Source: Antedon mediterranea
Lineage: Eukaryota > Echinodermata > Crinoidea > Comatulida > Antedonidae
Length of the DNA stretch: 64,000 nt
Assembly (NCBI RefSeq): GCF_964355755.1
Contig: NC_092679.1
Coordinates: 4,898,001-4,962,000, forward strand
Direction: 5' to 3'
Both the position numbers and the translations under genes were made by a program. Below, in pieces: positions 17,336-54,884 of the stretch; within the stretch, counting starts at the first letter, position 1; every line of letters starts with the position of its first letter. The notes beneath the pieces are model-generated. The model ran no database searches, was not told the origin of the DNA, and was given only the letters and a program-made list of their open reading frames with translations.

Positions 17336-18830
17336 ATGGCAGCCGCACTCGGTGCAGTCAAATCGTTGTCATCAATCACACCAGATGAGGGCAACCAGCT
17401 GTTAGAGTTCGACTCAGCGATTGTCATGATACAGTCACGGCTGCCTGTGCTACTAGCATTACTTGCTATACTACGAGATACGTTTGGTAAATATTAAATC
17501 GAGAATATACAATACTGACACTATACCACTACCTTGGTGCATCCTGGTCACTTAGTTAGCAAAACTAGGCTATAATGGAAAGTGGACTTAGTTTAGGAAC
17601 TTTGTAATCTGTGAGATTGAGCGTTGTCTAAAGCTCTGTCTACAGGCTATCAAACTGTATGTGACAACAAAATGTGATGTGGCCATATGGACATGATGTC
17701 ATATCACTACCATATTTGGGCATATCACTATACCATATTTAGGCACACTTTAAAAAAAAAAGAGTTTACAAGCGAGAGAATTCGGATGATTTATCGCGTA
17801 CTCATATTACACGTCCTTGCGTTGCGCCAAATCGCGTCGTATTAGTTTAGTTTAGTTTAAATGGGTAATGATAACGTCATTGCGTTGCGCAATGGGAACC
17901 AAGCTTTTATGAAAGAGTGACTGTATTTCTTTGTTTTTCATAGGTGACTCTGGTACCAAATGCTACCCACCCGAATACGTCAGTAACACAGAGAGTGTGA
18001 AGTATATCAACGCATACTGTACTTACAGAGAGAACGACGATCTCATCGGCTATCACGAATTCGTACCCTTCTCGTTCACTTTACAGGCTGTTTTAATACA
18101 GATTCCTATACTTATATGGATCGCTTGTGGCGGTAGAAAAATATCAATGGTGGCTATGTGGTTTGCTAAATGTTGTAGAGAGATTTGTTCAGAAGCCGAA
18201 TTCCCGATCAAGTCTGACACCGTCGCCGATGAAGACGACGGCGGGGCAAATAGCAATGATCGTAGAAACTGGCCTAAAGTACATTCAATCATGCAATGTT
18301 ACATAAACGAATGGTCCGTGTCTCGTACATATGTTTTAGCGTATTTTTTATGTAAGGTCCTACTTTGCTGCGCGACGTGCGCGTCTCTGACTTACCACTA
18401 CCTGTTACTACGAGTCACCATTGAGCCTTATTTTCTTAACAACGAATTTTCTTGTGACGTAGAAGACTTGAATACAACTATAAACTGTATCAAACCGTAC
18501 GAAATATTCAACCAGATTTTGATTATCATTGATCTTGTTCTGTGCCTTGCCCTACCACTGGCCGTGATCATTTTAAGAGAATCTCGGTTGCTTTTAACCA
18601 TGTTCTGCGGATGGCAAAAGAGCATCTCAGATTTTATACCTTTCTTAGAGATTCCAAAAGGAGCATTAAGATTTAATAATACAAATATACTGGCAATGTA
18701 CTACAAAGAAAATATTGGCTTAGACGAGAAATACGTTCAGAAGATATTAGTACCGTGGAAAACGTCAGTGGCAAAGACTAATGAAGTTTGTTTGAACGAA
18801 CTTTGTACTACTGAGAAAACGTGTTTTTGA
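17336..18830 (+). CDS. Innexin/pannexin-family channel protein, gene A
   Basis: Exons 17336-17486 and 17944-18830 join in phase 1 to give 345 residues. The family forms large-pore membrane channels from subunits with four membrane segments and cytoplasmic termini. Segments lie near residues 31-47, 93-112, 180-206 and 238-262. Loop 1 has Cys57 and Cys76, followed by the innexin-like YHEFVPFSFTLQAVL and GGRKISMV. Loop 2 has Cys221 and Cys232 with CIKPYEIFNQIL. The C-terminal MYYKENIGLDEKYVQKIL matches the innexin pattern before the tail. A sequon, Asn227-Thr-Thr, sits in loop 2. It is short for an innexin but complete, with its own ATG, donor GTAAAT, acceptor and stop. Gene D is its closest relative here. 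The family call is firm; whether it forms gap junctions or only plasma-membrane channels is unknown. Confidence 0.88.
17629..17760. mobile_element. MITE-like fragment in the intron of gene A
   Basis: AAAGCTCTGTCTACAGGCTA, TCAAACTGTATGTGACAAC and CCATATTTGGGCATATCACT match, mostly inverted, an element at 43,305-43,465. This copy seems incomplete at its right end, where it runs into an A-rich stretch. Confidence 0.6.
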
Positions 18831-20498
18831 TAATCACCATGCCATTGGCTGGTCCCGGCTCAAGTTTTAACAACTGGTCAACTGTACCTCAATAGTACTT
18901 TAAGTAAAACGCAATAATATTCCACCTGACGTGCATTACCGCAATCACATAAAATGAAAAAGAAGCACTATAATAACATATGACGTCCATTGGCGGTTTA
19001 AATATCGACATGACCGCGCTGAGCATAATATTTACGGATGAATTTTGATAGTTGTGTATGTTAAAGATGTATTGTCCCTTGAAACACAAAAAACGAAGGT
19101 CAAGATATTCTAAATTTAAATTGGCCATATCAAAGTAATACTAAAGTTATTCACTTTAAGTCGAAAATTCGAGCCAAAAAACAAACATTTTACGTAATTA
19201 ACAGCTAAATTAATTTGATTACACTGTCTGGAAAATCGTCGCAAGCGAAAGTAAACAAAGATTTCAAACCATGAGTATACATTATGCATGATGCTAATTA
19301 GGATTGTTTACAACTCGTCACGGTTGAGAAGGTGTTTTCACACAGATCGCGAGGAAGTTTTATGATTATGCATACAGAGTAGCTAAATAAGCGCGTTGCA
19401 TTATGAGATACGTTTTGACTGGAAGTCAAATTATTTTTTGAACCAAAAAACGTCTGTATTTTAGTTAGATGATTTTTTTTTCGACTAATTTTTGGTGAAA
19501 GTTAATAACTATTATGATACTTCAAAATGACCCACTTTTTTTTCGATTTTTTTTTTTTAATTTGACAAAGGGACAATACATCTTTAATATAACCTCATCT
19601 AATAATGTGTGGTATTTGTATATAGTATTTCGATTAAGCAACACATGTATTCGATACCTATTTAATGAAGACATGTTTTGCAAATACATTTTCATTCTAA
19701 TAAACCAGTATATGTGAATATTTATTGGGTTGAGACTGCCTCAGGTTAGTCCAGTGTGATCTAGACGTATTTACAGGGCCTTTATATCAAGTTCTAGTTG
19801 TATTAAGTAATCCGAATAAATATAAAGCACAAAATTAATCAGATGACGTTTTAATGTGTTATCATTCAGTGTGAAATTGGTTTAAATAGTACTGTTATCT
19901 CGGCCATCCAGGGTAGGCCTGGAGTACAACAATTGATGTGCGACACAATACACAATACGGTAGTAATAAATACAATACTTTAAAAATAACAGATTCGTTC
20001 GTTTCAATTACGATCATGAATACATTTGGCATAATATTGTAGCGTCTCACATTCTGTGCGCGCTAGGGCTTAACTTAAAAATAATTATATATTCTAATAG
20101 AAATCCAAAGAAATACCACTGAATATATGTAACAATTAAATTGATATAAATAGATCTATACATTTTGTTTAGATACCGTATCGGCATTTTTGACTGTAAA
20201 ATAGAAAAATATCATGAAATGCACTTTTTCAATATGTTCACACGGTGGACTGTTTTGAGGAAGTAAAATAAATGCTTATTCTGCCACCGTATTTAGCAGT
20301 TGCTGCGACTAAAAATTGTTTCGTGACATTTTACAACAGAAAATAATATAATATTGTATTTCACGGTCTCCTCTCAAAGTTAATTGAGTGTTTTACGGTA
20401 AGTTTTAAGCCATCTATACAGGATAGTGTATTGTGCCTATTTATATATATTTTGTTAGAGGTTCGAAAGAAAGCTCTATTGATCAAGAACTCATTTTG
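18831..20498. other. Intergenic DNA between innexins A and B
   Basis: No exon is recognised. GGGACAATACATCTTTAA at about 19,569 and its inverted counterpart near 19,062-19,082 (AAGATGTATTGTCCCTTG) mark an inverted-repeat element of about 520 bp (roughly 19,060-19,585). The rest is unexplained AT-rich sequence. Confidence 0.45.
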
Positions 20499-21150
20499 TT
20501 AGTATAGGCAAACACTTTGTATAGTTTTTAAAATTGATATTTGTTATTATTATATTTTATAATCTTTAATTAGTATAGGCAAACACTTTGTATAGTTTTT
20601 AGTATAGGCAAACACTTTGTATAGTTTTTAGTATAGGCAAACACTTTGTATAGTTTTTAGTATAGGCAAACACTTTGTATAGTTTTTAGTATAGGCAAAC
20701 ACTTTGTATAGTTTTTAGTATAGGCAAACACTTTGTATAGTTTTTAGTATAGGCAAACACTTTGTATAGTTTTTAGTATAGGCAAACACTTTGTATAGTT
20801 TTTAGTATAGGCAAACACTTTGTATAGTTTTTAGTATAGGCAAACACTTTGTATAGTTTTTAGTATAGGCAAACACTTTGTATAGTTTTTAGTATAGGCA
20901 AACACTTTGTATAGTTTTTAGTATAGGCAAACACTTTGTATAGCTTTTAGTATAGGCAAACACTTTGTATAGTTTTTAGTATAGGCAAACACTTTGTATA
21001 GTTTTTAGTATAGGCAAACACTTTGTATAGTTTTTAGTATAGGCAAACACTTTGTATAGTTTTTAGTATAGGCAAACACTTTGTATAGTTTTTAGTATAG
21101 GCAAACACTTTGTATAGTTTTTAGTATAGGCAAACACTTTGTATAGTTTT
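20499..21150. repeat. 29-bp minisatellite, nearly identical copies
   Basis: One isolated copy lies at 20,499. A contiguous array of about 20 copies of the 29-bp unit (AGTATAGGCAAACACTTTGT plus ATAGTTTTT) follows from 20,572. Almost the only variant is a C in TAGCTTTT near 20,944. The sequence AAAATTGAT after both the single copy and the end of the array suggests expansion from one ancestral unit. It ends about 170 bp before the start codon of innexin B. Confidence 0.95.
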
Positions 21151-21322
21151 TAAAATTGATTTTTTTTATATCTTTACTTTGTAACCTATATTAATACTTT
21201 TTTAAAAATCCAATTGAAAATGTTTAGTAACTGAATCAAATATATTATTTGTTTATTATTATGTTGCTAATTATGGATTTTTTTTTACAAACTTAGACCT
21301 AATTGCATTTCAAATACGGACG

Positions 21323-22637
21323 ATGTCAGACACAATTGCTGAAATCACATCGTTGTCTTCGCTTATTGCATATGAAGGACACCGACTTCTACGGTTTGAC
21401 TCGGTGATTCTTATGTTACAAACACGGCTGCCTTTACTACTGGCTGCATTGGCTTTGATACGTGACACGTTTGGTAAATATAACTAAATATCTATAACAT
21501 TCTCGCACTACCGTATACTGCATGCTTATTGTTTTTCAGTTCTTCGTGTACATAATTCTATGAAAATGATTTTATTTGTGTCCCTTTCTTTTCTTAGGTG
21601 AAATGTCGATTACGAATTGTTACGCACCCGATTTCACTGGAACAGAGAATAAAGCCTTTGTTAACGCATATTGCAAGTACAGGGAAAACCTAGGGCTACT
21701 CGGATACCACGAATTCATACCGTTCACCTTCACCCTCCAAACTGTTTTGATACAGGTTCCCGTACTTACCTGGATTTTTCTTGGTGGTAGAAAAATGTCA
21801 ATGGTGGCTGAGTGGTTTTCCAAATGCTGTAAAGAAGTTTGCTCAAAAGAAAAAAAATGCCCAGCATCGACAAGTAAAAATGACAAGCCTACTCGAGAAC
21901 CTCATTCAATAATGCAAAGTTACATAAAAAGATGGTCTAAATCATGCACGTATGTTATAACTTATTTCGTCTATAAGTTTTTCCTTTGCATTGTAACAGG
22001 TTTGTCTCTGTATTATCATTGTCATATGGTCAAAGTCACAATTGAGCCAAATTTCTTCAACCACGAATTTGAATGTTACGTAGAAACCGTAAATAAGACG
22101 GTTACCTGCGTCAAACCGTACGAAATATTCAACCAGATATTAATTATCATTAACATTGTGATATGCCTTGCAATACCACTTTTTCTAATAATTGTTCATG
22201 AATGTAATGTGCTTTTTAAAATGTCCCGTGAAAATCAGAACATTTCGAATTTCTTACCTTGCCTTGCCTTGCCAAATAAACCAAAATTGTTTAATAATAC
22301 GAAAATACTCTTAATGTACTACGAAAGAAATATCGATCTGGATGAGAAATACGTTCAGAAGATAATAGGGTATAAACAAATTAATGGGCAGGAAGAAACT
22401 AATGGGCAGGAAGGAACTACTGGGCAGGACGAAACGAAAGGGCAGGACGAAACGAAAGGGCAGGACGAAACGAAAGGACAGGACGAAACTAAAGGACAGG
22501 ACGAAACTAATGGACAGGACGAAACGAAAGGGCAGGACGAAACTAATGGGCAGGACGAAATGACAGGGCAGGACGGAACTAATGGGCAGAAAGAAAATGA
22601 ACGTCTACTTTCTTTTTGTTGTACGATCAATACATAA
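21323..22637 (+). CDS. Innexin/pannexin-family channel protein, gene B
   Basis: Exons 21323-21473 and 21598-22637 join in phase 1 to give 396 residues. The 151-bp first exon has the same length as in gene A. Loop 1 keeps two cysteines (NCYAP...NAYC) followed by YHEFIPFTFTLQTVL. Loop 2 reads ECYVETVNKTVTCVKPYEIF, with two cysteines and the sequon NKT. The conserved LDEKYVQKI element precedes the tail. The tail is unusual: about ten copies of a six-residue unit close to GQDETK, encoded by an 18-bp minisatellite (about 22,380-22,600), then LLSFCCTINT. The repeat keeps the frame open. The intron is only 124 bp. Function as in gene A; the role of the repeat tail is unknown. Confidence 0.87.
22380..22600 (+). 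repeat. 18-bp coding minisatellite in innexin B
   Basis: GGGCAGGACGAAACGAAA is repeated about ten to twelve times with small changes. The unit is a multiple of three, so copy-number change would lengthen or shorten the cytoplasmic tail without frameshift. Confidence 0.9.
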
Positions 22638-23066
22638 CCCAACTACCTTGTGGTTTCCGCTGGTCAAACACTATTTTTTGTTGTATAATCTTACTCATTT
22701 TAACTTGGATCTTGATTGTAATTGACAAAACTCCAGCATAATCATGAAGCTAAGTTTACTGTAAAACATGGGTAGTTGCTAAAAGCAAGCGACATCCGTC
22801 TTGTAATTAGTGTTGAATGTTAGAATGATTTCTATTACCGTATTTATCCTGATTCATTATAAGTATAAGCAGTTGTAGTGATTATTTACACACGTCATTC
22901 GGTTTTAGAATTAGATTAAGTGTATTACATAGAATTAGACAAATATATAAACTTTTCAAACAGGACAGGCGTGAATAAGAACATTTTTACTTGACGTCTC
23001 TGAGGCAGAAATCATGAATAATTCATGAGATTAATTAGGCAAAAGTTAGAAAATGATAGAGGCACT
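22638..23066. other. Intergenic DNA after innexin B
   Basis: Presumed 3' UTR and spacer. No canonical AATAAA close to the stop codon and no other feature was recognised. Confidence 0.4.
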
Positions 23067-23107
23067 ATAATAATAATAATAATAACAATAATAATAATAA
23101 CACTAAC

Positions 23108-23163
<56 letters not shown>

Positions 23164-24035
23164 GATTTTTATAGCGCACATACCACTCCAGAGTGCTCAA
23201 GGCGCATTTAAAAATAAAAAGAAATAAATCATACAAATTCCTGACAAATAAAATGCAATTTCTTTGGAGGGTCCCCATCCGTTGTCGTTCTGTCGCGGTC
23301 CCGGACCCCTACCTAGGTGACCAAACAAAGGAGCAGGATACACATTTGCCTTGCCACAGACGACCGGGTGCTCAGAGACAACAACCAAGACAGAGGCACC
23401 CCAAAGATAATGCTGGCCAGGAAAAGGTATACAAAACAATTCTAAGCCTAAAAAACTTTAAGAAACCTCATGATTTCCATATGCCTTAATGAATAAATGT
23501 GTTTTTAATAATTGTTTAAAAGTATCAGTTTTGCAAAATCTTATAGAGCTCGGTAGAGCATTCCACAGACGAGGAGCAGTAACGGAGAATGCTCTGTCAC
23601 CCCATGAGTGGTGAGACTTAGGCTGATGTAGAAGCAGCGAGTCACTAGAACGCAGATTACGTCCGGGAACATACAGCCTAAGCATGTCAGAAATATATTC
23701 AGGAGCCATGCCATTTATAGACTTAAAAACAAAGAGTAATATTTTAAAAACAATGCGGTACCTAACAGGGAGCCAATGAAATATTTCCAAAGTATTTGAT
23801 ATGTGTCCATAGCTGTATTTTGAATCAGTTGGAGCCTGTGGAGTTGTTTTTGTGGTAGCCCGTATAGCAAAGAGTTTCCCATATCCAGTCGTGAAGTGAC
23901 AAAAGCATGAACAAGTTGTTAGCTGCTGTCTCATTTATAAACTTGCGGATCCTTCGAATGTTTCGCAAGTGAAAAGACGACGCAGAAATAGTTTTTGAGA
24001 TATGAGAAATCATAGTCATACCCACATCCATTTCA
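23067..24035 (-). mobile_element. 5'-truncated CR1/L2-like LINE fragment with (TAA)n tail
   Basis: On the minus strand, 23934-23458 encodes the typical C-terminal end of a CR1/L2/Jockey-group reverse transcriptase: [20 protein letters not shown], then RLYVPGRNLRSSDSLL, WGDRAFSVTAPRLWNALPSS and TFKQLLKTHLF. The preceding part (FHLRNIRRIRKFINE, in the frame covering 24031-23825) is in another frame, so the element is frameshifted. A 3' UTR and a TAA-type microsatellite (about 23,067-23,163) close it, as expected for this group. It is dead. Confidence 0.9.
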
Positions 24036-25857
24036 ACCCCAACCCCCTATTATAATAAATAGCTTCCCGTTTATTTTAGAACTGTAGTAGGTGTGTTATA
24101 AAACAAATAATGAATATGTTGTATTCGTTGAATGGAGAGAATAATTTAACTCGGCTCAAATGACATATTCTCACCATTTAAGTCATAAACATTCATTGTT
24201 TGTATAATAAGTTTAAATATTGCCGTGAATCAAATATATATTTCTTTGAATTATTCATTGCTGACATTATGTTATATTATTGACGATGTCACACAATGTA
24301 ATCATTTTTCCATTTTATACTACTATTTTAAGCCAAGAGGTTGGATCAGATATAGATCTGCTTGTATAGCCTAGAGAATATTGGTGAAGGGTGTTTAAGG
24401 ATGAGATGGTTTTGATTTGGATTATTGTAAGGGATTAACGGAGATTTCTTGATTGTAGGCTGTTATTAAATTGTTGCAAAAAATACCGTAATGGTTTAAT
24501 TTGTTTGGTTTTTATTGCACGTGTTACGTTTAAGCCTATACATCATTAGAATGTTTTCACCGTGCATATTGTGTGGAGCCACCTTGAAATACCTTGAATA
24601 AATCCCTTTTATGCCTAAACATGGCACGCTGCACAGTTGATGCCAATAGTAATAACCGCCACTTTCGGTTAAAAAAATCGTACTGAAAATGACGGGCGCA
24701 CGATGAAGATACGATTAAGATAACTTTACGAATTATTGCGACAGGTAAGACGTTTGCTACGATATATTACGACTGTACTTTGATTTCATTACGGCTTCAA
24801 TACGATTTTGTCAAGAAGCTTGATCATCTGTGAATGTTAACAACCATTGCCAAATCGTTTCTGGACCGAATTGTTCAAAAACTTTTTCGAAAACATTGAC
24901 GTAAACAAACTTTAATTGGAAATAATGTGAATTCAATAGGTGTGCGTTTTCCCCATGGCCTTATATGTACTTATTCATCGACAGCATTATGACTTGCCGT
25001 AGTGATTATCAACATTGTAATATTTCAAAACCAGCTTCCAATGTTTGAACAATTGAGTAATGCATACGGATTAGGTATAAAGACCATGGAGTATTTTAGG
25101 TTTAGTAATAATTCACCCGATAATTCACATACATTGTTGATCTTTCCGAATTCATTTACATTTGTTATTTGGGATTCTCGTCGTCATAGGACTGTGATTG
25201 TGCTCGTTAGGCTACTCTCTGTTATACATAATTCATTTATAGAATGATGGAATGAATAACGATATAAAAACGTTTATTGCTGGTGATTTCAATCATTTTG
25301 TTATAATAAAGTGGCAAGATCTAAATGTATGGAAATAAATTAGACCCTAATGGGTGGTCATATAGATTCACTAGACATGTTACAACTAACTGGGGAGAGG
25401 GGGAGAAAGAGAAAATAATAATCTTCTTCTATTTGGACCAATGACCCTGCAGGGATTGGTATCTAATCTTTTTTCACCAAGCTAATTAACTTCTCTCCAC
25501 TTGTTGATATGATATCGAAAGCTACGTAAAATTCCAGTGTTGTATAATTCAACATAACACGTAGGCCAGTAACGTTATCTCGATCGGAGACATTCAAGTG
25601 GAATTTGTTTGCGATGAACTAGTCTGTTTCCACAAAATACAGAGAATTCCCTGATTAAAAAGACCTGGATGATATTCAAAGTTTAATAATTAATTTTATG
25701 CATTATAATTGTCCTTGTGTTATCTATGTCTATGTTTATATCTATGTTTAGTTCGACATAAACGACATTCTTTCCAATACTCTAGTTTATAGTGGTTCCT
25801 AAGGAAAGTGAGAGCAGACATTTGTTATAGTCTTTAGGCCTACTAGTTACTAGCACG
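24036..25857. other. Intergenic DNA between innexins B and C
   Basis: No exon or known repeat is supported. The promoter of gene C should lie in the last few hundred bases. Confidence 0.4.
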
Positions 25858-28154
25858 ATGGTCAGCGGCGCATTTGAAACAATTACCGCATTCTCATCAA
25901 TTACTCCAGTTTCAGGAGAGCATCTTTTAGAGTTTGATTCAGCCATTCTTAGGCTGCAGACACGACTGCCTCTACTTCTAGCGTTATTGGCTTTACTACG
26001 GACTACATTTGGTAAATATGACAATTACATTATATCAGGGCTATAATTATGCTATGTTACCTGTTACATACGTTTTTAGTTCATTGTTTTTAAAATGGAG
26101 AAATGTTTTTCCTGACCAAATGCAGACCTCCAGACTCTCCCGATTTCATGTCATCTGCTGCTCTATCCCGCTAAAATACAATTTCTTCCGATATTTTGGT
26201 TAAACAGAGAAAATATCTCAATAATGTATAAACATTAATTTATAATTTTGCTCATTTTTCGAAAAAAAAATGCCTGTACTATCCTCTAGATAGATAAGAG
26301 ATTTGAAAAAAATACTATAGGTGGTCTACCGGTCCATAAGATGGTTATAATAAAATTCATGCGTTGATTACGAAATACAGAGATTTTTCGCATTTTGGCA
26401 CGCCATGACATACCTATGTTTATAGATGCAAATATCTAACATGAGGAGTCGTGATTAATTCTGAGTGTTTGATATACATACATCATAAGTAGGGTTAAAC
26501 AGTTTACATTCTTCACTGGATTTCATGACAAAAGTTCATAAAAAAGTTATCCGTTATTTTTCCAGTACTCTTTTAAGCTTGGTTCACACTATATGACGCA
26601 ATGTAAGGAGGGAGACGCACCGTATCGGCGCCGCGCGCAACAGTGATAATTAAACTTCTCGTAAGATGAGAATGCGAAATTGACAGAAGATAATTCTATT
26701 ACGCTCTGCGTCGTCCAGGCGTTAAACGTTTTGCTGCGCCATTTTGGATGTTTTTTAAGTGAGTGACATTAATAAAAGGCACAATAAACATTGCGAATTC
26801 AGCCCGGAGATTGAGATTTCATACATAACTTCAGATTTTTTATTATTTTTTTTTTATTATTGATCATCATACGTGTATAGTTATAATACATAATATAATA
26901 CTCTAACCAAATAGATATTGATGTGAACCAAATAGATATTGATGTGAACCAAATAGATATTGATGTGAACCAAATAGATATTGATGTGAACCAACTAGAT
27001 ATTGATGTGAACCAAATAGATATTGATATGAACCAAATAGATATTGATATGAACCATATAGATATTGTTGTGACCAAATAGATATTGATGTGACCAAATA
27101 GATATTGATGTGATGCAAATATCTAACATGAGGAGTCGTGATTAATTCTGAGTGTTTGATATACATACGTCATAAGTAGGGTTAAACAGTTTACATTCTT
27201 CACTGGATTTCATGACGTACAAAAAACAACAAACATCATATTATTACAAGACTTCCTTTATATCACTTAGGTGGCACGGGCATATCATGTTACGCACCTG
27301 ATCTTAACGCCGAGAGTGTAAACTTTATCAATGGATATTGCCGGTACAACGAAAACCAAGGTGCATTAGCTGGATTTCACGAATTCATACCATTTACATT
27401 CATCCTTCAAACTATTTTACTGCAAGTCCCCGCACATGTCTGGATTTCCATTGGTGGCAAAAAAGTGTCAATGGTGGCTAAGTGTTTCGTCAAATGCTGT
27501 AAAGATAGCTGCTCAGAAGCTAAATGCCTCCCAAATCCTGACAGAAATTGGAATGGAGATAGTTGCTCTTTAAAAGATCTATCACACCCTACCACCAGCG
27601 CTGAAGTACAAGATTGTAGTAACTGGCCTAAATTCCATGAGGTAATGCAATATTATATAGACCAGTGGTCTAAATCGTCGAAATATTTAAACCGTTATCG
27701 CAACTGTAAATTAGGACTTTATGCTGTGACAATAATTATAATGGTTTGTTATTTTACTGTTACATTTGTGACAGTCGGATCAGATTTTTTTAACTACGAA
27801 TTCGAATGCTATGTAGAAGCGTTAAATTTTACGTCTATCTGCGTTAAACCTTATGAAATATTTAACGAGATTTTACTTATTACTAATATAGGAATATGTC
27901 TTTTATTACCACTGGTAATTATGATTGCTCGAGATATTTATTTGTGTGTCACAATCAAGTTTGGAAAGAAGCAAAAAAATATCACAGATTTTATACCTTG
28001 CATACGAATTCCAAACGAATCTAAAAGTCCTAATGATACAACTATGATTGTGATCTACTACCAAGAAAAGATTGGTCTAGACGAGAAATACGTTCAGAAG
28101 GTTTTAGTACCGTATAACGATAAGATAAAAACAGGCTTAAGCTCTATAACCTAA
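25858..28154 (+). CDS. Innexin/pannexin-family channel protein, gene C
   Basis: Exons 25858-26011 and 27271-28154 join in phase 1 to give 345 residues. The first exon gives SITPVSGEHLLEFDSAIL and RLPLLLALLALLRTTFG, the same N-terminal helix and first membrane segment as its neighbours. Loop 1 has SCYAPDLNAE...GYC and then FHEFIPFTFILQTILLQVP. Loop 2 is ECYVEALNFTSICVKPYEIF, with two cysteines and the sequon NFT. LDEKYVQKVLVPY closes the core. The intron is 1,259 bp, much longer than in B, because it contains a minisatellite-cored element flanked by ~104-bp direct repeats. The reading frame and splice sites look intact. Confidence 0.87.
26426..27216. repeat. Direct ~104-bp repeats flanking a minisatellite element, intron of gene C
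   Basis: GATGCAAATATCTAACATGA through CACTGGATTTCATGAC occurs at about 26,426-26,529 and again at about 27,113-27,216. Between them lies the first copy of the element described at 28,243. This gives an R-element-R structure, either a duplication of the insertion neighbourhood or a recombination product. Confidence 0.85.
26540..27112. mobile_element. Minisatellite-cored element, copy 1
   Basis: A ~330-bp unique head (AAAAAAGTTATCCGTTATTT, then GACGCACCGTATCGGCG and GCGCAACAGTGATAATTAAA) is followed by about nine copies of a 21-bp unit containing CCAAATAGATATTGATGTG. A near-identical head and a longer array lie at 28,243. There is no coding capacity. Nonautonomous elements with a central tandem array are known among Helentron-like and similar families; the class here is not determined. 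Confidence 0.75.
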
Positions 28155-28242
28155 AGTCTACAATATAATAATATAATAATTATATAGTTGGAAAGTTTTT
28201 CCGTGGCGATTTAAAGTTTTGCAGTGACATTTTCAAACTCAT

Positions 28243-29075
28243 TAAAAAAAGTTATCCGTTATTTTTCCAGTACTCTTTTAAGCTTGGTTCACACTATATG
28301 ACGCAATGTAAGGAGGGAGACGCACCGTATCGGCGCCGCGCGCAACAGTGATAATTAAACTTCTCGTAAGATGAGAATGCGAAATTGATAGAAGATAATT
28401 CTATTACGCTCTGCGTCGTCCAGGCGTTAAACGTTTTGCTGTGCCATTTTGGATGTTTTTTAAGTGAGTGACATTAATAAAAGGCACAATAAACATTGCG
28501 AATTCAGCCCGGAGATTGAGATTTCATACATACTTCAGATTTTTTATTATTGATCATCATACGTGTATAGTTATAATACATAATATAATACTCTAACCAA
28601 ATAGATATTGATGTGAACCAAATAGATATTGATGTGAACCAAATAGATATTGATGTGAACCAAATAGATATTGATGTGAACCAAATAGATATTGATGTGA
28701 ACCAAATAGATATTGATGTGAACCAAATAGATATTGATGTGAACCAAATAGATATTAATGTGAACCAAATAGATATTGATGTGAACCAAATAGATATCGA
28801 TGTGAACCAAATAGATATTGATATGAACCAAATAGATATTGATGTGAACCAAATAGATATTAATGTGAACCAAATAGATATTGATGTGAACCAAATAGAT
28901 ATTGATGTGAACCAAATAGATATTGATCTGAACCAAATAGATATTGATATGAACCAAATAGATATTGATGTGAACCAAATAGATATTGATCTGAACCAAA
29001 TAGATATTGATATGAACCATATAGATATTGATGTGAACCAAATAGATATTGATGTGAACCAAATAGATATTGATT
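28243..29075. mobile_element. Minisatellite-cored element, copy 2
   Basis: It has the same head as the copy in the intron of gene C, with only scattered differences, followed by about 23 copies of the 21-bp unit (about 28,595-29,075). Because 21 is a multiple of three and the unit lacks stop codons, it creates spurious long frames on both strands. It lies in the 3' flank of gene C. Confidence 0.8.
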
Positions 29076-29079
29076 GGTT

Positions 29080-29669
29080 GTCATTTTTTGACGCTAAAAA
29101 TGTAGTAAGCATTTTATACTTATTTTACACCAACAGATGGTTCAAATATCTGTCCCCTACTGTATATAAAATATAGAATTGGTTCAGAGGATGTTTTTCT
29201 TTCGCACCTGCCTTTCTTGTATTTTGACTCCAAATTTGTTAACTGACTTTATTCTGAATATCAAACTTTAAAATTAGGACTTATATAAGAACTTTCAGGA
29301 GGAAAAGCACATAAAAACAAATAAATAAATCCTTTAAATTGATGTTTTTACAGACGTGTTTCTTTGTATACTGAGTGTAACTCCTCCCATGCTCAATGTT
29401 TTTGTTTCTATGTAGCGCCAAAAGAGCAACAATAATAGTACAAGTATAAAAACAGAAAGAAAACGAAACAAAAAACTTATTATCATGATTTTAAATTAAA
29501 ATTTATTTGCGAGTGTTTATTTCTTCGTACTAGCATGATTATACTATTATTATTACAATTTTAATTTTACATTGTTCCATCCACACTTTAGATGGACTCC
29601 ACAGAGTTTTCAGCACTCTATATAATTTTGCTCTTTTGACGTTCCATAGAAACAAAAACATTGAACATG
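29080..29669. other. Intergenic DNA, nothing recognised
   Basis: AT-rich spacer between the minisatellite-cored element and the foldback structure. Confidence 0.4.
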
Positions 29670-32600
29670 ATGTAGGCGGCTATGTACAGATATGTTCGGA
29701 CCCCCAAAATGAAGACAGGAGCATGTTCATGTACATTGATTATTAACAACTTAGGGAGTTTGAAAGGAAGATGTGATTGGATATTGAGGGAGAGCGTCAT
29801 TTCGACGATCGATCATTCTCTACTCTCTATTTAGAGAATGACGGATTAATGAATAAATAATATGATCAAAACTATGGAGCACCAATCATTGTTTTGTCTA
29901 GCAACCTAAAGAAATTGCCTGTCGTACATGTTTACAACACTAAATGTTTAAAATTTCATTTCTTTCGCTCTGACACTACAGATTTCAAAATAAGTTTTTT
30001 TCTGTGGAAAGTCCTGCGTTGCAGTAAAAAGCCGATGGGATGGTAATTGTCTTTATCATTCAATATCCCGTATTTTTTGTGTAATTATATTTTTCTAATT
30101 AATAAAAGATTTTTTATTTTGTGTATGTACAGTACTTGTATCTGAATATTTGTTACTTGCAGCCAAATATACCATCATTTTGGGTATATGGAACACAATG
30201 CATTATATATGATAATTATTATATAATGAGCAATGAGGCCGTTTTTTTTTTCTTTTTTTTTTTTTTTTTATTCATACTCATCCAACAGCGAGTAACTCGC
30301 CAATTACAGGATGGATAAACTATTTAATAATTTATCGTGCTTATAAACTAAGTCTCATTTGAGGCTTAGGGAGTGGAGTTGAAAGAGTCATGAGTTACAA
30401 CCCTGCACTAGGTCAGGATTGAACCCGGGACCTTGGGATTGGAAGGCAAGCACGTTAACCACCAAGCTACAGCTCCACTTCCTATATTAAAGCATTGTGT
30501 TCATGTGGTATCATTTTGGGTATATGGAACACAATGCATTATATATGATGAATAAACCACTGTAATATGAGGCCGTTTTCCTATGTTAAAGCATTGTGTT
30601 CCTGCTGGGGTTATCATTTTGGGTATATGGAACACAATGCATTATAATGATAAATAAACCATTGTAATAAGCAATGAGGCCGTTTTCCTATGTTAAAGCA
30701 TTGTGTTCCTGGGGTATCATTTTGGGTATATGAAACACAATGCATTATATATGATGAATAAACCACTATAAGCAATGAGGCCGTTTTCCTATGTTAAAGC
30801 ATTGTGTTCCTGTGGTATCATTTTGGGTATATGGAACACAATGCATTATATATGATAAATAAACCACTGTAATAAGCAATGAGGCCGTTTTCTATGTTAA
30901 AGCATTGTGTTCATGTGGTATCATTTTGGGTATATGGAACACAATGCATTATATATAATGAATAAACCACTGTAATAAGCAATGAGGCCGTTTTCCTATG
31001 TTAAAGTATTGTGTTCCTGGGGTATCATTTTGGGTATATGAAACACAATGTATTATATATGATGAATAAACCACTGTAATAAGCAATGAGGCCGTTTTCT
31101 ATGTTAAAGCATTGTGTTCATGTGGTATCATTTTGGGTATATGGAACACAATGCATTATATATAATGAATAAACCACTGTAATAAGCAATGAGGCCGTTT
31201 TCCTATGTTAAAGCATTGTGTTCCTGGGGTATCATTTTGGGTATATGGAACACAATGCATTATAGATAATGAATTAACCACTGTAATGAGGCCGTTTTCC
31301 TATGTTAAAGCATTGTGTTCCTGGGGTATCATTTTGGGTATATGGAACACAATGCATTATAGATAATGAATTAACCACTGTAATAAGCAATGAGGCCGTT
31401 TTTCTATGTTAAAGCATTGTGTTCATGTGGTATCATTTTGAGTATGTAACACAATGCATTTATACAGTAATGAATAAACCACTTCAATAAGCAATGAGGC
31501 CGTTTTCCTATGTTAAAGCATTGTGTTCCTGTGGTATCATTTTGGGTATATGGAACACAATGCATTATAGGCTAATGAATAAACCACTGTAATGAGGCCG
31601 TTTTCCTATGTTAAAGCATTGTGTTCCTGGGGTATCATTTTGGGTATATGGAACACAATGCATTATATATAATGAATAAACCACTGTAATATGAGGCCGT
31701 TTTCCTATGTTAAAGCATTGTGTTCCTGGGGTATCATTTTGGGTATATGGAACACAATGCATTATATTTGATGAATAAACCACTGTAATAAGCAATGAGG
31801 CCGTTTTCTATGTTAAAGCATTGTGTTCATGTGGTATCATTTTGGGTATATGGAACACAATGCATTATATATAATGAATAAACCACTGTAATAAGCAATG
31901 AGGCCGTTTTCCTATGTTAAAGCATTGTGTTCATGTGGTATCATTTTGAGTATGTAACACAATGCATTTATACAGTAATGAATAAACCACTTCAATAAGC
32001 AAAGAGGCCGTTTTCCTATGTTAAAGCATTGTGTTCCTGTGGTATCATTTTGGGTATATGGAACACAATGCATTATAGGCTAATGAAAAAACCACTGTAA
32101 TATGAGGCCGTTTTCCTATGTTAAAGCATTGTGTTCCTGGGGTATCATTTTGGGTATATGGAACACAATGCATTATATAATGAATAAACCACTGTAATAT
32201 GAGGCCGTTTTCCTATGTTAAAGCATTGTGTTCCTGGGGTATCATTTTGGGTATATGGAACACAATGCATTATATTTGATGAATAAACCACTGTAATAAG
32301 CAATGAGGCCGTTTTCCTATATTATAGAATTGTGTTCCTTGGGTATCATTTTGGTTAATGGAACACAATGCATTATATATAATGAATAAACCACTGTAAT
32401 ATGAGGCCGTTTTCCTATGTTAAAGCATTGTGTTCCTGGGGTATCATTTTGGGTATATGGAACACAATGCATTATAGATAATGAATTAACCACAGTAATA
32501 AGCAATGAGGCCGTTTTCCTATGTTAAAGCATTGTGTTCCTGGGGTATCATTTTGGGTATATGGAACACAATGCATTATATTTGATGAATAAACCACTGT

Positions 32601-35600
32601 AATAAGCAATGAGGCCGTTTTCCTATATTATAGAATTGTGGTCCTGTGGTATCATTTTGGGTATATGGAACACAATGCATTATATATAATGAATAAACCA
32701 CTGTAATATGAGGCCGTTTTTCTATATTAAAGCATTGTGTTCCTGGGGTATCATTTTGGGTATATGAAACACAATGCATTATATATAATGTTTAAACCAC
32801 TATATAACAATAAAGAGCAATGAGGCCGTTTTGCTATGTTATAGCATTGTGTTCCTGGGGTATCATTTTGGTTATATGGAACACAATGCATTATATATAA
32901 TAAATAAACCACTGTAATATGAGGCCGTTTTCCTATGTTAAAGCATTTTGTTCCATATAAATGTTCCATATAGGTTGCTCCATCCATATTGCAAAAAAAA
33001 AATAACTATCGAGCCATATCACTGATTTTTTAAATTTACGTTTTTACAAAATGTACACTTATGAAAGACCATACAATTCCAAAGCATTTTTTAAACCTAA
33101 TAAAGATTTTGAAAAAAAAACCAACAAAAAACGTTCATGAATGAAATTTTGTTTCTGTGAATAGAGCAACCTATATTGAACATATAAAAGAAGTTTCAAA
33201 TGTTTTTAAATTCGAAAAGTATTTTTTATCGATGTTTTTTGTATATGTTTTTAAGCAAAATTCTATCCATAACCTAATTTTTAATGTTCAATGTGATATT
33301 TATTGAAGTGCTTTGAATACGCTGATGAAATTTGGAGGTATGAAACTTTGTTAGGAGTAGAATCAGCTTCCAGCATTAAATGTTAAAAATATGTTTATAT
33401 TACTCATTAATTAATAATAATTATTAATAAATTAATAGAAAACTAGAGAGGGCGCTTTTCGACAAGGAAATGAATGTTTTTTTATGTGTGTTATTTTTCC
33501 GCTCGAGTTTATTCAATGTACTGTAATATACACTGTTACATACTATTTTATTGGGAAGTAATTATTTTTGTGTGAATCTTCTTGGAGTTGTTTGAAAGCC
33601 TATCCGCTTACTTCTTTTCTTCAGAAAACATCTAATTTAGGTCTTAAAGTGACAAAAATAAACCAGATTTTGCCCACACACACTTCATCTCCTGAACTAA
33701 CATAGTACAGTATAAGTCAAATTAATTGTTTTACATTTTTTTTATTGAAATCAATCTGCCTCAAAAAATATTATAATAGTAACAATAACAGAAAGGTAGA
33801 TAGGTATTTTTATAATTTTTAAATTTAAAAATGTAAACAAAAAAACAACTGAATAAATGTTTATACATACATTATAAATGAAATAAAATAACTACTATTT
33901 TAGTAATGCATACACAAGTACAGAATATCAGAAATCAATGAATTATGTTTCTAAATATGGCATTATTAGGCATAGGAAAACGGCCTCTTTGCTTATTGAA
34001 GTGGTTTATTTATTACTGTATAAATGCATTGTGTTACATACTCAAAATGATACCCCAGGAACACAATGCTTTAACATAGGAAAACGGCCTCATTGCTTAT
34101 TACAGTGGTTAATTCATTATCTATAATGCATTGTGTTCCATATACCCAAAATGATACCCCAGGAACACAATGCTTTAACATAGGAAAACTACCTCATTGC
34201 TTATTGAAGTGGTTTATTCATTATACTGTATATAATGCATTGTGTTCCATATACTCAAAATGATACCCCAGGAACACAATGCTTTAACATAGGAAAACGG
34301 CCTCATTGCTTATTACAGTGGTTTATTCATTATATATAATGCATTGTGTTCCATATACCCAAAATGATACCCCAGGAACACAATACTTTAACGAGGAAAA
34401 CGGCCTCATTGCTTATTACAGTGGTTTATTCATCATATATAATGCATTGTGCTCCATATACCCAAAATGATACCCCAGGAACACAATGCTTTAACATAGG
34501 AAAACGGCCTCATATTACAGTAGTTTATTCATTATAGTGTATATAATGCATTGTGTTCCATACCCCGATACTCCAGGAACACAATGCTTTAACATAGGAA
34601 AACGGCCTCATATTACAGTGGTTTATTCATCATATATAATGCATTGTGTTCCATATACCCAAAATGATACTCCAGGAACACAATGCTTTAACATAGGAAA
34701 ACGGCCTCATATTACAGTGGTTTATTCATCATATATAATGCATTGTGTTCCATATACCCAAAATGATACCCCAGGAACACAATGCTTTAACATAGGAAAA
34801 GGGCCTCATATTACAGTGGTTTATTCATTAGCCTATAATGCATTGTGTTCCATATACTCAAAATGATACCCCAGGAACACAATGCTTTAACATAGGAAAA
34901 CGGCCTCATTGCTTATTACAGTGGTTTATTCATTATATAATGCATTGTGTTCCATATACCCAAAATGATACCCCAGGAACACAATACTCATAGGAAAACG
35001 GCCTCATTGCTTATTACAGTGGTTTATTAATTATATATAATGCATTGTGTTCCATGTACCCAAAATGATACCCCAGGAACACAATGCTTTAACATAGGAA
35101 AACGGCCTCATTGCTTATTACAGTGGTTTATTCATTATATATAATGCATTGTGTTCCATATACCCAAAATGATACCACAGGAACACAATGCTTTAACATA
35201 GAAAAACGGCCTCATTGCTTATTACAGTGGTTTATTCATCATATATAATGCATTGTGTTCCATATACCCAAAATGATACCCAAGGAACACAATGCTTTAA
35301 CATAGGAAAACGGCCTCATTGCTTACAGTGGTTTATTCATCATATATAATGCATTGTGTTCCATATACCCAAAATGATACCCCAGGAACACAATGCTTTA
35401 ACATAGGAAAACGGCCTCATTGCTTATTACAGTGGTTTATTCATTATATATAATGCATCGTGTTCCATATACCCAAAATGATACCACATGAACACAATGC
35501 TTTAACATAGGAAAACGGCCTCATTGCTTATTACAGTGGTTTATTCATTATATATAATGCATTGTGTTCCATATACCCAAAATGATACCACAGGAACACA

Positions 35601-36700
35601 ATGCTTTAACATAGGAAAACGGCCTCATTGCTTATTACAGTGGTTTATTCATTATATATAATGCATTGTGTTCCATATACCCAAAATGATACCCCATGAA
35701 CACAATGCTTTAACATAGGAAAACGGCCTCATATTACAGTGGTTTATTCATCATATATAATGCATTGTGTTCCATATACCCAAAATGATACCCCAGGAAC
35801 ACAATGCTTTAACATAGGAAAACGGCCTCATTGCTTATTACAGTGGTTTATTCATTATATATAATGCATCGTGTTCCATATACCCAAAATGATACCACAT
35901 GAACACAATGCTTTAACATAGGAAAACGGCCTCATTGCTTATTACAGTGGTTTATTCATTATATATAATGCATTGTGTTCCATATACCCAAAATGATACC
36001 ACAGGAACACAATGCTTTAACATAGGAAAACGGCCTCATTGCTTATTACAGTGGTTTATTCATTATATATAATGCATTGTGTTCCATATACCCAAAATGA
36101 TACCCCATGAACACAATGCTTTAACATAGGAAAACGGCCTCATATTACAGTGGTTTATTCATCATATATAATGCATTGTGTTCCATATACCCAAAATGAT
36201 ACCACAGGAACACAGTACTTTAATTTCACTATGGTTACTTAATTTTACTTAATCTTTATTAATACAAATATATTGATTTCCAAAGTGGTTCACAAAAGTT
36301 CTACAAAACTAAATGAAAATGATACACATTAATAAAACGCAAATTCAAGAAATGTTTCTACACTTCATACAAAAGAAAACTTTTAGAGGAAATCATGGAA
36401 GTGAATTGGATTAACACATCTACTTTGCAGAAAATGTAAACAAATAATACTGTAACTGAATTGATAAGCACTGATCCCTTTAAACTTTACTATAAAACAC
36501 TATCAATTACGAAGGGAAAAAAAACATGTTTCCACTACTTGATAGAGAGTAGAGAATGCTCGATTGTCGAAATGACGCTCTCCCTCAATATCCAATCACA
36601 TCTTCCTTTAAAACTCCCTAAGTTGTTAATAATCAATGTCCATGAGCATGTTCATGTCTTCATTTTGACGGTCCGAATATAGCTCCTATGTAGGCTTGTC
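29670..36700. mobile_element. Large foldback structure with satellite arms (~7 kb)
   Basis: The outer ~150 bp at 29,670-29,830 (GTGATTGGATATTGAGGGAG, CGTCATTTCGAC) recur inverted at about 36,535-36,700. Inside, the left arm (about 30,165-32,960) is a tandem array of a ~105-bp unit in one orientation. The right arm (about 33,955-36,225) is the same unit in the opposite orientation. A ~1-kb AT-rich centre (32,960-33,955) has no coding capacity. Each unit itself holds a 12-bp inverted repeat, GCATTGTGTTCC / GGAACACAATGC. Long inverted arms built of tandem repeats around a loop are the hallmark of foldback transposons such as sea-urchin TU elements. No target-site duplication was confirmed. Confidence 0.8.
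30241..30478 (-). mobile_element. tRNA-derived SINE inside the foldback left arm
   Basis: Read on the minus strand from 30,478: GGAGCTGTAGCTTGGTGGTT gives an A-box-like region and GGTTCAATCC a B box of RNA polymerase III. A non-tRNA body follows, then an A-rich tail (the T run at 30,241-30,269 on the plus strand). It interrupts a satellite unit between GAGGCCG and CCTATATTAAAG. Confidence 0.8.
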
Positions 36701-37492
36701 ATGCGAAATTCGCAAACAGTATGTGTGCGAGAAAAACGTCCTCTGAACCAACACAATGGAGTAAAATACCAACAAACAACCAGTCAAGTTTGTTTGATGT
36801 AAAGAAAAAATATACATTTACTCAACGGGCGAAAATAATGTGAGTTTATCTATGTTTTGCGGTAGTATTTAATTATATTTATGGTAATAAATGCAACCTA
36901 CTATGTTTAAAATTGGGTCCTAGCTTTCGTGATAGGTCTTGTGACACCCAACTCTCAGCAATACATTACATTACATGCCACGAAAAAAAGGCTCATAATA
37001 TTTGTATTGGTAAGTTTTTTTGTTATTAATTAGTCAAAGACTGGTGGTCTCCCAGAAGGCTCAGTTATGATCAGTGGCTGTACTAGTACCCCCCCCCCCC
37101 ATCCCCTACTCATCTACAAAGATGTACAGTACTAGGTAGGCCTACTTTAAAGTGCAATGACAATGATTCTTTATCGACCCTTTTTCAGGGTATGAAAGAA
37201 CAATCTTTCAATCTTATACAGAAACAAACTAAACACTTCCAGAAATAAATATTTGGACATGAGCTAGATGTGTACACTGGACCACCTACGGTTTATAGTC
37301 CTTATATGAGAAGACTCGTTCTACCACCAGAACCAATTGAGCCTCGAATCCTCTGATGTTATGGCTACGTTACGGTTCCACAAATACATACAACAAATAA
37401 ATATACAATAATTGAAAACAAATTGAAAGTTTCAACAATCTTCCTTTAATCTTTAGGCCTAACATTAGTTAGTTTTGTAGAAAAAAGGGACA
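36701..37492. other. Upstream region of innexin D
   Basis: Noncoding, with a short C run near 37,090. The 5' flank of gene D; no core promoter could be assigned. Confidence 0.4.
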
Positions 37493-40022
37493 ATGGCAGC
37501 CGCACTGGGTGTAGTCAAATCGATGTCATCTATCACGCCAGAAGAAGAGGGAAATCAACTGCTATGGTTTGACGGAGTCATTCTTAAGATGCAGTCACGG
37601 TTGCCTATACTATTAGCTTTATTAGCATTATTACAAGATGCGTTTGGTAAATATTAAATTAAACATTGTATATATTAAGGCAGGTAGGCCTACCATTAGC
37701 CATACTATACTATGATGGCAGACCAGGATCTAATATTCCTGTCACTGCCGTATTTTTACCTGACATCAATTTGACATTAACCTGACATTAATCAAAGCTA
37801 TTTCAAACATTGTTTTAAAGGTGATACAAGCACAAAATGCTGCCCTCCAAAAGACTGTAACACTGACTGTGTAAATTATATCAACTAGATGGTACGCTCG
37901 CTTCGCTCGCGTACCATCTAGGTCGTGCCCACAGATGGTTCTCGAATACACAGTAATTTCAGGGTAACAAATCTGGCGATTTCAAATGCACGTACCGCAG
38001 GACTATAATACATTGTCGTTTACAGAAACGAATAAGTAGACACAATGATTTATGTAGTCAACCAAAATTAGCACCCTGAGAATTACTTCCGAGAGAGAAA
38101 CAAAATGAGTCAAAAATTTTTATTTGGACTCATTTAAACAAACCCAATTTGTGTTTTGTATGTAACATTAAGGGTTGAGGGATGGAGGAAGAAGATAGGT
38201 ACAAAGAGGAAATTATCCACTCAGTAACGAAATATTGTTTTTAATGTTTTATAGGCCTATAAATAATATACCACTAAATACAGTAAAACATTTACGATTT
38301 AATACGGTACTTTGTTAAAACTCTCACTGTCATAGTCGATTGAAATAGTAAAGTACATGTAACGATACACCACTACGACGTTTATATATTTTTAAATTAT
38401 TAATTAATACAAACGTTGAGAAGCAACTGTCAGTAATAACGTTTATTTATTTGTATATTATATGTTTATAATCTAACAGTAGGGCCTACCCACACTCACA
38501 GTAATAAAGTTTATTTGTATAAATTTTTATATTACATCTAACAGTACCAACACTCACAGTAAGAAATTTGCGATTCAAATTGCGATCAAAGGTGGTTAAT
38601 ACCTTAACAGTATTGTACAGCATTGCAATACTATTTATGTTTATTCTCCAAGGGGGCCCATAAATCTAAATCTATACCTGTATGGTTAAACCAAATAATT
38701 TGGAATGTTCCATTAATCACAAATCAATACATTTGTAAAAACGTATATTAAATGTATCAAAATAGTATTTTTTAAAGAAAATCGGCCTGTCTTCAACATT
38801 ATGATGCTCTACTCGAACTGTTCAACCGGTTTTCAGCTATTAAAAACAATTATCGTAGGAGGAGATAGGAAAATGCGAAGCCTCCTCGCATTTTTGTGGC
38901 GGGTATTTTTCAAGACGGACATCCATTAGACAGTGTATACCACGATCGGAAAACACCCCTATTTGGGGCAAATCGTTGAACCTAAATTCGTTTTAATCGT
39001 CAATAAATAATTATCTAACTTAATTTAATTAGTAAACAGGGTTACATCAGGTGGTTAAAATCAGTACCGAAAGTACGAACCAACTGTATATACCATCGAG
39101 TAAAAATTCTAGAAGTAAGGCGCGATTTACCGAATTTTGCCCTTACGTAAATTTATATATAGATGCGTATTGTACTTATAAGGAACATGATGGCCTACTC
39201 GGCTATCACGAATTCGTACCATTCTCGTTAACTCTACAAGCTGTTCTACTTCAAATTCCTGTGCTCGGATGGATTGCATTTGGCGGTAGAAAAATATCAA
39301 TGGTCGCTCTGTGGTTCGCCAAGTGTTGTGGAGAGATTTGTTCAGAAGTCGAAAACCAATCACCGATCAAGTCTGACACCGTCGCCGATGAAGACGACGG
39401 CGGTGCAAATAGCAATGATCGTAGACACTGGCCAAAAGTACATTCAATCATGCAATGCTACATAAACGAATGGTCTATGTCTCGTAGATATGTTTCAGCG
39501 TATTTCTTATGCAAGATTCTACATTGCTGTGTAATATGTGCTTCTTTTGGGTACCACTGTCTTTTACTAAACATCACACTTAAAACGAGGACAAATCCAG
39601 ATCTTCTCAACCCAGAGTTTGAATGCAACGTGACGGCGGTTAAAACATTACATAATGTGACGACGATAAACTGTATCAAACCGTACAAAGTGTTCAACGT
39701 TATTCTAATTCTAATCCATCTTGTATTATGTCTGGCAATACCTCTTGCAATGATACTTATACGTGATATTAAATTGTTTTTAACAATGTGTTGTGGATGG
39801 CAGAAAAGTATTGACACGTTCGTACCGTACTTAAAGATCCCAAAAGGTGCACTGAGGTTTAATAATACAAATATACTCGTCATGTACTATGAAGAAAATA
39901 TTGACCTGAAGGAGAAATACGTTCAGAAGATATTATTACCTAAAACATTGTTAACAAAACCTAAATTAAATGGTGTACGGGGAAAAAGAGTTACGGAAAA
40001 AACATGTCTATTGCAAAAATGA
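37493..40022 (+). pseudogene. Innexin/pannexin-family gene D, split by a Helitron-like insertion
   Basis: Exon 1 is 37493-37646 (51 codons plus one base). Original exon 2 starts at 37821 after TTTTAAAG and reads DTSTKCCPPKDCNTDCVNYI. At 37,885 it is broken by a 1,279-bp element whose first bases supply an in-frame TAG. The frame resumes at 39,164 and runs intact to TGA at 40,022: the second loop-1 Cys, YHEFVPFSLTLQAVL, loop 2 with two cysteines and the sequon NVT, and LKEKYVQKILLP. AATAAA lies at 40,257. Apart from the insertion I see no lesion. It is either a very young null allele or pseudogene, or it survives by splicing from exon 1 to an acceptor inside the element (for example after AAACAG at 39,039, which fits the phase). 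Confidence 0.8.
37885..39163 (-). mobile_element. Nonautonomous Helitron-like element in exon 2 of innexin D
   Basis: Read on the minus strand it starts TCTATATATAAATTTACG and ends in a perfect hairpin, CTAGATGGTACGC / GCGTACCATCTAG, finishing in CTAG. It lies between A and T with no target-site duplication, as Helitrons do. A longer copy at 59,963-62,345 has the same two ends and also sits between A and T. No Rep/helicase coding region is present. The terminal position of the hairpin is somewhat closer to the end than in classical Helitrons. Confidence 0.8.
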
Positions 40023-53693: not shown

Positions 53694-54884
53694 ATGACAG
53701 AGAAAACGGATCACCCCTTTTCAATACTCATTATTCAAACTGGTGGTGGGTTTTATTTAAAAATGTATTATTTATTAATTTTTAGGATATTGATTTTAAC
53801 TAGGAGCTGCAGTTAGTTAGCCTAGGCCTAGTTCTTTTCTATCTAGCCTAGCTAGTAGGAGCCCACGTACTCCCCCAGGCCATCCATTGCCAGGCAAGTG
53901 GGAAAATCATATAGACGTTTTGACCCACTTTTAGTCTGCAGTTCAACTCTTCTTTTATTAAACCACCATATTATGGCCAATTGTGAGGAAATCTTAATAA
54001 CATTGCTAGATAAAGTAGGCCCTCTAATTAATTGCCTTATTTATTGAGTACTCACAGTTACAGTAGGCTATTAATAATTATGATTTTTTTTTTCTTCAGG
54101 AACGATAGACAAAAATTATCCAAAAAGGGCAGGGGCATATGCCTTTGAAATTGGAAGTCCAGCCAGTCAAGAGATAGTAGATGCTGCATATCCCTCTATT
54201 AAAATTGAATATGGATCAGTCTTCAGAAAAGACAGTCAAGAAATTAATCAACAAGACAGGTATATAGTCTATGAATAAATATAAAATATTTAGTAGTTTT
54301 CCTGTGAAATTCCTTTTGTGGTAAAGTGACGGACATTGACGCACCATTGTTCATTGAGCTGACGTACCATTTGTAAATGACGCACCCATGACACACCTCT
54401 ACCAGGGGTTGTATAGTGTTGTACAACTGACCAGTGTATTAAGGAGACACTTTGCCACTTGTGGGTCCTCAACGTGACCTCATAATAGAGATTATATAAT
54501 ATTAATTTCAGAGTACTTATTGGAGGTTAATGAATTTTTTTATTTATAATAATTGCTGTTTCTTTTTTATTTAGAGAACTACTTTATGAAGTGTGTAAAG
54601 CAGCTATTCAGAGCAGCATTGTAATAACACACGGAACAGATACGCTGTTGGAAACCGCTGTTTATCTCGGTAACAAGGCCTTGAAGAAAACTATCATCTT
54701 GACTGGCTCATTCCGACCTGCCACCTTTAAAAACTCTGATGCGAACTTTAACCTTGGAGTTGCCTTGGGGGCGCTGCAATGTATATCAACGTACGGAGTG
54801 TATGTTGCTATGAACTGTCAAGTGTTTCAATGGAATCAAGTAACAAGGAATTTGGATACAGGAAATTTTATTGCAAAATTATGA
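53694..54884 (+). CDS. Small bacterial-type asparaginase-domain protein
   Basis: Exons 53694-53745 (ATG), 54100-54259 and 54575-54884 (TGA) join in phases 1 and 2 to give 173 residues. The N-terminal SILIIQTGGTIDKNYP carries the TGGTI motif with the first catalytic threonine of L-asparaginases. SIVITHGTDTLLETAVYL carries the second motif with Thr-Asp. ILTGSFRP and SDANFNLGVALGALQ follow. It ends after NFIAKL, so it lacks the usual C-terminal asparaginase domain, like the ~165-residue asparaginase-domain proteins of bacteria. The position of the catalytic lysine seems to hold Arg in WNQVTRN. AATAAA lies at 54,943, about 60 bp past the stop. Hydrolysis of asparagine is plausible but not assured. 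The exon structure shows it is a real animal gene. Confidence 0.88.

Follow-up and report, generated by a model that had tools for sequence, protein, structure and literature searches.

Four tandem genes of the innexin/pannexin family in a crinoid genome, probably encoding mainly non-junctional, pannexin-like channels

Introduction

Do echinoderms possess genes for gap-junction-type proteins and, if so, what kind of channel would these genes encode? Published surveys conflict on this point, with none found in genomes and some in transcriptomes: a 2019 survey that covered the genomes of eleven echinoderms plus a crinoid read set recovered neither connexins nor innexins, and it also records electrical coupling in starfish embryos (PMC6391747), whereas a 2022 study reports innexins in echinoderm transcriptomes and, for hemichordates, innexin fragments only (PMC8769644). 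Our search for literature joining innexins with crinoids returned nothing beyond the 2019 survey (PMC6391747) and one unrelated review.

The question is raised again by a 64,000-nt stretch of DNA (the window), for which an original prediction, made from the sequence alone, proposed a tandem cluster of innexin/pannexin-family genes in a probable echinoderm, that is, in a lineage that it took to have been reported without this family. That premise matches the 2019 survey (PMC6391747) but is partly outdated by the transcriptomic innexins described in the 2022 study (PMC8769644). Here we analyse this cluster; its genomic anchoring in a crinoid, the presence of an apparently complete set in a single cluster and the occurrence of an EL2 sequon in every copy appear to be new.

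Results

The window contains four two-exon genes in tandem

Gene models were built from stop-to-stop frames plus short upstream frames, spliced at matching sites. In this way, four plus-strand genes of two exons each, designated A to D, were rebuilt between positions 17336 and 40022 (Table 1), where the original prediction had located the cluster. As it had also proposed, exon 1 ends in TM1: in all four genes the break falls just after this segment, in phase 1, at the common donor TTTG/GTAAATAT (the slash marks the splice site). The acceptor in genes A, B, and C is AG/GT, which results in a shared glycine codon, and the best frame-keeping acceptor of gene D is less certain than those of the other three. 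Both the donors and the second exons are preserved in the four genes, the former being intact and the latter open over their whole length. The predicted product length of 345 residues is correct for genes A and C only, since the products of genes B and D have 396 and 378 residues, respectively.

Table 1. Positions of genes A to D and of their exons in the window.
Feature	Position	Strand	Basis
Gene A, two exons	17336..18830	+	
Gene A exon 1: N-terminus and TM1	17336..17486	+	Splice-site joining; protein search of genome
Gene A exon 2: EL1, TM2, cytoplasmic loop, TM3, EL2, TM4, C-terminus	17944..18830	+	Pfam Innexin, spliced protein
Gene B, two exons	21323..22637	+	
Gene B exon 1: N-terminus and TM1	21323..21473	+	Splice-site joining; protein search of genome
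Gene B exon 2	21598..22637	+	Full-length phmmer match, pannexin 6vd7
Gene C, two exons	25858..28154	+	
Gene C exon 1: N-terminus and TM1	25858..26011	+	Splice-site joining; protein search of genome
Gene C exon 2	27271..28154	+	Full-length phmmer match, pannexin-1 8gtt
Gene D, two exons	37493..40022	+	
Gene D exon 1: N-terminus and TM1	37493..37646	+	Splice-site joining; protein search of genome
Gene D exon 2, with a divergent start of EL1 and an uncertain acceptor site	39040..40022	+	Pfam Innexin; EL1 comparison

Several repeats were found within and between the genes. The C-terminal tail of gene B contains an in-frame 18-bp tandem repeat (22378-22589; TRF) that adds GQDETK-like hexapeptides. 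Positions 23458-23934 (minus strand) are occupied by an interspersed repeat that contains an open frame and has no Pfam match; at least 40 scored copies of it, with 90-98% identity, are present on eleven contigs. The same 21-bp tandem repeat, AACCAAATAGATATTGATGTG, occurs in the intron of gene C (26905-27121) and just downstream of this gene (28595-29074), a disposition that could favour unequal exchange. Additionally, a 104-bp minisatellite forms two arrays, of 22-24 copies, between genes C and D (30479-32954 and 33971-36223); their units are mutually reverse complementary, so that the arrays form a large inverted pair separated by about 1 kb.

Other features of the window include, at 3512-11674 (plus strand), an intron-split PDZ domain (Pfam PDZ, 5.8e-7) followed by one 2,510-aa open exon, rich in charged, low-complexity sequence, in a layout that we take to be reminiscent of AHNAK-type proteins. 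An exon of an asparaginase gene is found at 54534-54884 (plus strand; Pfam Asparaginase N-terminal, 1.9e-17), and several successive frames at 56442-58893 (minus strand) gave no Pfam match among the frames tested; it is our impression only that they are parts of a mobile element, with a Ulp1-like protease and a zinc-finger-like stretch.

The four products match innexins and pannexins

Using the Pfam Innexin profile (PF00876), which the original prediction had named for this purpose and whose curated cut-off is 25 bits, we obtained scores above the cut-off for spliced gene A (37.5 bits, E 2.1e-9) and for exon 2 of gene D (31.1 bits, E 1.8e-7), and nothing above threshold for genes B and C. The accompanying warning that simple similarity searches could miss these genes is thus half true, as it applies to B and C but not to A and D. 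Innexin was the only Pfam family matched by the four genes, with no match to Connexin (PF00029).

A profile of A to D compared with all PDB sequences retrieved pannexin-1 first, followed by pannexin-2 and pannexin-3 (31 pannexin-1/2/3 chains, E 1e-12 to 4.5e-4). The best alignment, with pannexin-1 (E of about 1e-12), starts in TM1 and extends into the C-terminal segment (positions 23-319 of the 343 in the profile), and in its membrane-distal C-terminal segment the profile sequence fnntkilvlyyeeni lies opposite YNDLSLYNLFLEENI of pannexin-1. INX-6 reached an E of 0.011 in the same search; because the PDB contains no other innexin, the apparent closeness of the four proteins to pannexins rather than to innexins is not a phylogenetic result. 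When used individually, gene B matched pannexin 6vd7 (phmmer, E 5e-11) and gene C matched pannexin-1 8gtt (phmmer, E 2.4e-8), in both cases over the full length, and gene A produced only weak matches in the PDB. Therefore, the Pfam matches of A and D and the PDB matches of B and C constitute independent family evidence for each of the four genes. An AlphaFold model of a gene exon 2 alone, with four alignment rows, was poor (pLDDT 46.5), and its top Foldseek match, Panx1, was not significant (E 0.93). Judging from these sequence comparisons, the family assignment of the original prediction is right, and A to D are innexin/pannexin homologues along nearly their whole length.

Conserved motifs, loop cysteines and EL2 sequons

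The four proteins are 41-69% identical in pairwise comparisons, and in a protein search with gene A the product of gene D was 72% identical over A residues 71-344. Such likeness is far beyond chance and, on this sequence evidence, A to D are tandem paralogues; the cluster would have originated by local duplication. Each protein contains four hydrophobic segments (four hydropathy peaks higher than 1.5), and their alignment revealed invariant FD and RLP in TM1, HEF.PF before TM2, C.KPY..FN before TM4 and EKYVQK in the C-terminus. The motifs originally described are all present, although in somewhat different form: YHEFxPF before TM2 and the C-terminal LxEKYVQKI show small departures, being in reality Y/FHEF[VI]PF and L[DK]EKYVQK[IV], and CxKPYxxFN at TM4 corresponds to C[IV]KPY[EK][IV]FN.

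The paired loop cysteines that had been predicted occur in both loops of A (EL1, C57/C76; EL2, C221/C232), B (C58/C76; C210/C221), and C (C58/C75; C231/C242), whereas the EL1 pair of D (C85/C96) is altered, with a spacing of 11 residues vs. 17-19 in the other three. Furthermore, the first part of EL1 from gene D cannot be aligned to those of A to C, either at the protein or at the DNA level; gene D has a rebuilt first extracellular loop and could be in decay. The dN/dS ratio was 0.20-0.40 in every pair of genes (Nei-Gojobori), values that are rough because dS is above 1 and saturated (1.05-1.63), and that point to purifying selection on the four genes.

All four proteins carry an N-glycosylation sequon between the two cysteines of EL2: N227-T-T in A, N216-K-T in B, N237-F-T in C, and an NVT sequon in D, whose EL2 contains two of these, N248-V-T and N257-V-T. 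The asparagine and the threonine are constant and the middle residue is variable (NTT, NKT, NFT, NVT), as expected under selection for a glycosylation site. In an alignment with the profile of A to D, the sequon of mouse Panx1, N254, falls in the same inter-cysteine loop of EL2.

The cluster is probably the whole family set of a crinoid genome

We searched the complete assembly, which comprises 354 Mb in 18 contigs. Genome-wide, the Pfam Innexin profile found genes A and D only, and protein queries A and C each recovered all eight exons of A to D, with no other match with an E below 0.5. Even if a missing match is not proof of absence, these searches suggest that the four-gene cluster is probably the whole set of this family in the genome. 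We rejected a connexin identity, as no connexin match was found for the genes or for the genome, the genome search having been done without a positive control.

Bindin is an echinoderm protein, and a bindin core, KIDLPVDINDPYDLGLLLRHLRHHSDLLANI, is present in the genome. Likewise, a tektin(-4) assembled from exons scored 701 bits against the tektin of 8snb, a sea urchin sperm microtubule structure, vs. 404 bits against the next chain, from 7rro, a mammalian one. Two neuropeptides are also encoded letter for letter in the genome: GLRFHKGAPF, the L-type SALMFamide of crinoids, with GKR directly after it, and crinotocin, CFWRTCPVG, located between a signal-peptide-like stretch and GKR; these peptides have been described from crinoids (PMC9793003), and reversed-pattern controls gave no match. 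Together, the bindin core, the tektin scores and the exact neuropeptides therefore identify the organism as a crinoid, which makes the predicted echinoderm origin more exact, and rule out a non-echinoderm origin. In addition, a bindin-like gene exon, with conserved core LGLLLRHLRHHSDLLANI, was observed at L024 1501-1698.

Discussion

Our main reading, to which we assign a probability of around 0.8, is that this crinoid has a tandem cluster of four innexin/pannexin paralogues, apparently the complete set, that would encode mainly non-junctional, pannexin-like channels. Pannexins and innexins share a plan in which four-pass subunits assemble into oligomeric large-pore channels and, as predicted from sequence, each of the four proteins would be such a subunit in the plasma membrane. 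In pannexin-1, the N255 glycan has been described as a physical barrier to gap-junction formation or docking (PMC8096850); from this, and from the presence of an EL2 sequon in all four proteins, we infer that the channels are mainly non-junctional. By analogy with N254/N255 of pannexin-1, the EL2 glycan would block the end-to-end docking of channels from neighbouring cells, and the channels would act mainly within one membrane, as a release route for ions and for small metabolites, ATP among them.

The cluster could instead encode true intercellular gap junctions, being the missing molecules behind echinoderm electrical coupling. Electrical coupling has been recorded in two-cell starfish embryos, in which no known junction gene was found (PMC6391747), and a search of the crinoid genome, which lacked a positive control, gave no connexin match; A, B, and C, moreover, possess in both loops the cysteines that are expected to stabilise docking. 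The 2022 study indicates that extracellular sequons also occur in many non-chordate innexins and are not exclusive to chordate pannexins, and that some glycosylated innexins do make junctions (PMC8769644). Because seven sequon-bearing innexins are recorded there as gap-junction formers, an EL2 sequon does not exclude junctions. However, the sequon lies between the EL2 cysteines in all four proteins, and not just in some, in the very loop whose glycan hinders docking in pannexin-1 (PMC8096850), and the coupling was recorded from starfish and not from a crinoid; we consider junctions formed by A to D unlikely. We find it quite improbable, too, that the cluster is mostly decaying, as the remnant of a disappearing family in which just one or two copies still work. 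In gene D the usual beginning of EL1 has been lost and the acceptor is uncertain, the tail of gene B is expanded by a repeat, and genes B and C are under the Pfam family cut-off, but the second-exon frames are fully open and the donors intact in the four genes, and dN/dS is 0.20-0.40 between all pairs, even if these values are rough owing to a saturated dS.

The failure to find the family in any of eleven echinoderm genomes or in one crinoid read set (PMC6391747) would be in agreement with the genes being contaminants of the assembly, or having been acquired recently from a different animal. Nevertheless, the cluster sits within a 25 Mb contig, the four genes carry introns and are mutually diverged, and the 477-bp repeat between genes B and C has copies, 90-98% identical, on ten further contigs of this assembly. 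Since this repeat recurs on ten other large contigs, the cluster belongs to the crinoid genome; contamination was rejected, and we regard a foreign origin of the genes as extremely improbable.

The location of a cluster of innexin/pannexin-family genes on a chromosome-scale crinoid contig has consequences for the conflicting surveys, because it shows that the family is present in at least one echinoderm class and provides exact query sequences for the other classes. Additionally, since a sequon is present in EL2 of all the copies, as in chordate pannexins, the cluster bears on the proposed loss of junction-forming innexins in deuterostomes before the origin of connexins. Crinoids are the sister group of all other echinoderms. 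We tentatively propose, as a possibility that we consider less likely than not, that crinoids kept only glycosylated, pannexin-like innexins and that the family disappeared from sea urchins, starfish, brittle stars, and sea cucumbers. If true, this pattern, together with that of chordates, would imply that innexins were already exclusively non-junctional in the deuterostome ancestor, and that the other echinoderms owe their electrical coupling to a still-unknown junction protein.

Among known systems, connexins (PF00029) share with the crinoid proteins the same topology and a similar channel role, but are unrelated in sequence. The innexins of protostomes and cnidarians (PF00876) have the same membrane plan and the PF motif before TM2, with A and D scoring above the family cut-off; conversely, Caenorhabditis elegans INX-6 (5h1q) gave a weak local match (E 0.011), and many innexins lack the extracellular sequons, whereas all four crinoid proteins have one in EL2. 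The transcriptomic echinoderm innexins (Welzel and Schuster, 2022; PMC8769644) belong to the same phylum and family by that paper's account; they differ in being transcripts, while the crinoid cluster lies on a chromosome-scale contig. Vertebrate pannexin-1 (PANX1; 9hf1, 8gtt, 6m02, among other structures) shows homology over nearly the full length, four TM segments, two cysteines per extracellular loop and, at N254 in the mouse, an N-glycosylation sequon flanked by the EL2 cysteines. Unlike pannexin-1, to which they show low identity, the crinoid proteins have a shorter C-terminus (A and C) or a repeat tail (B), and their four genes lie together in tandem, whereas pannexin genes are single and dispersed.
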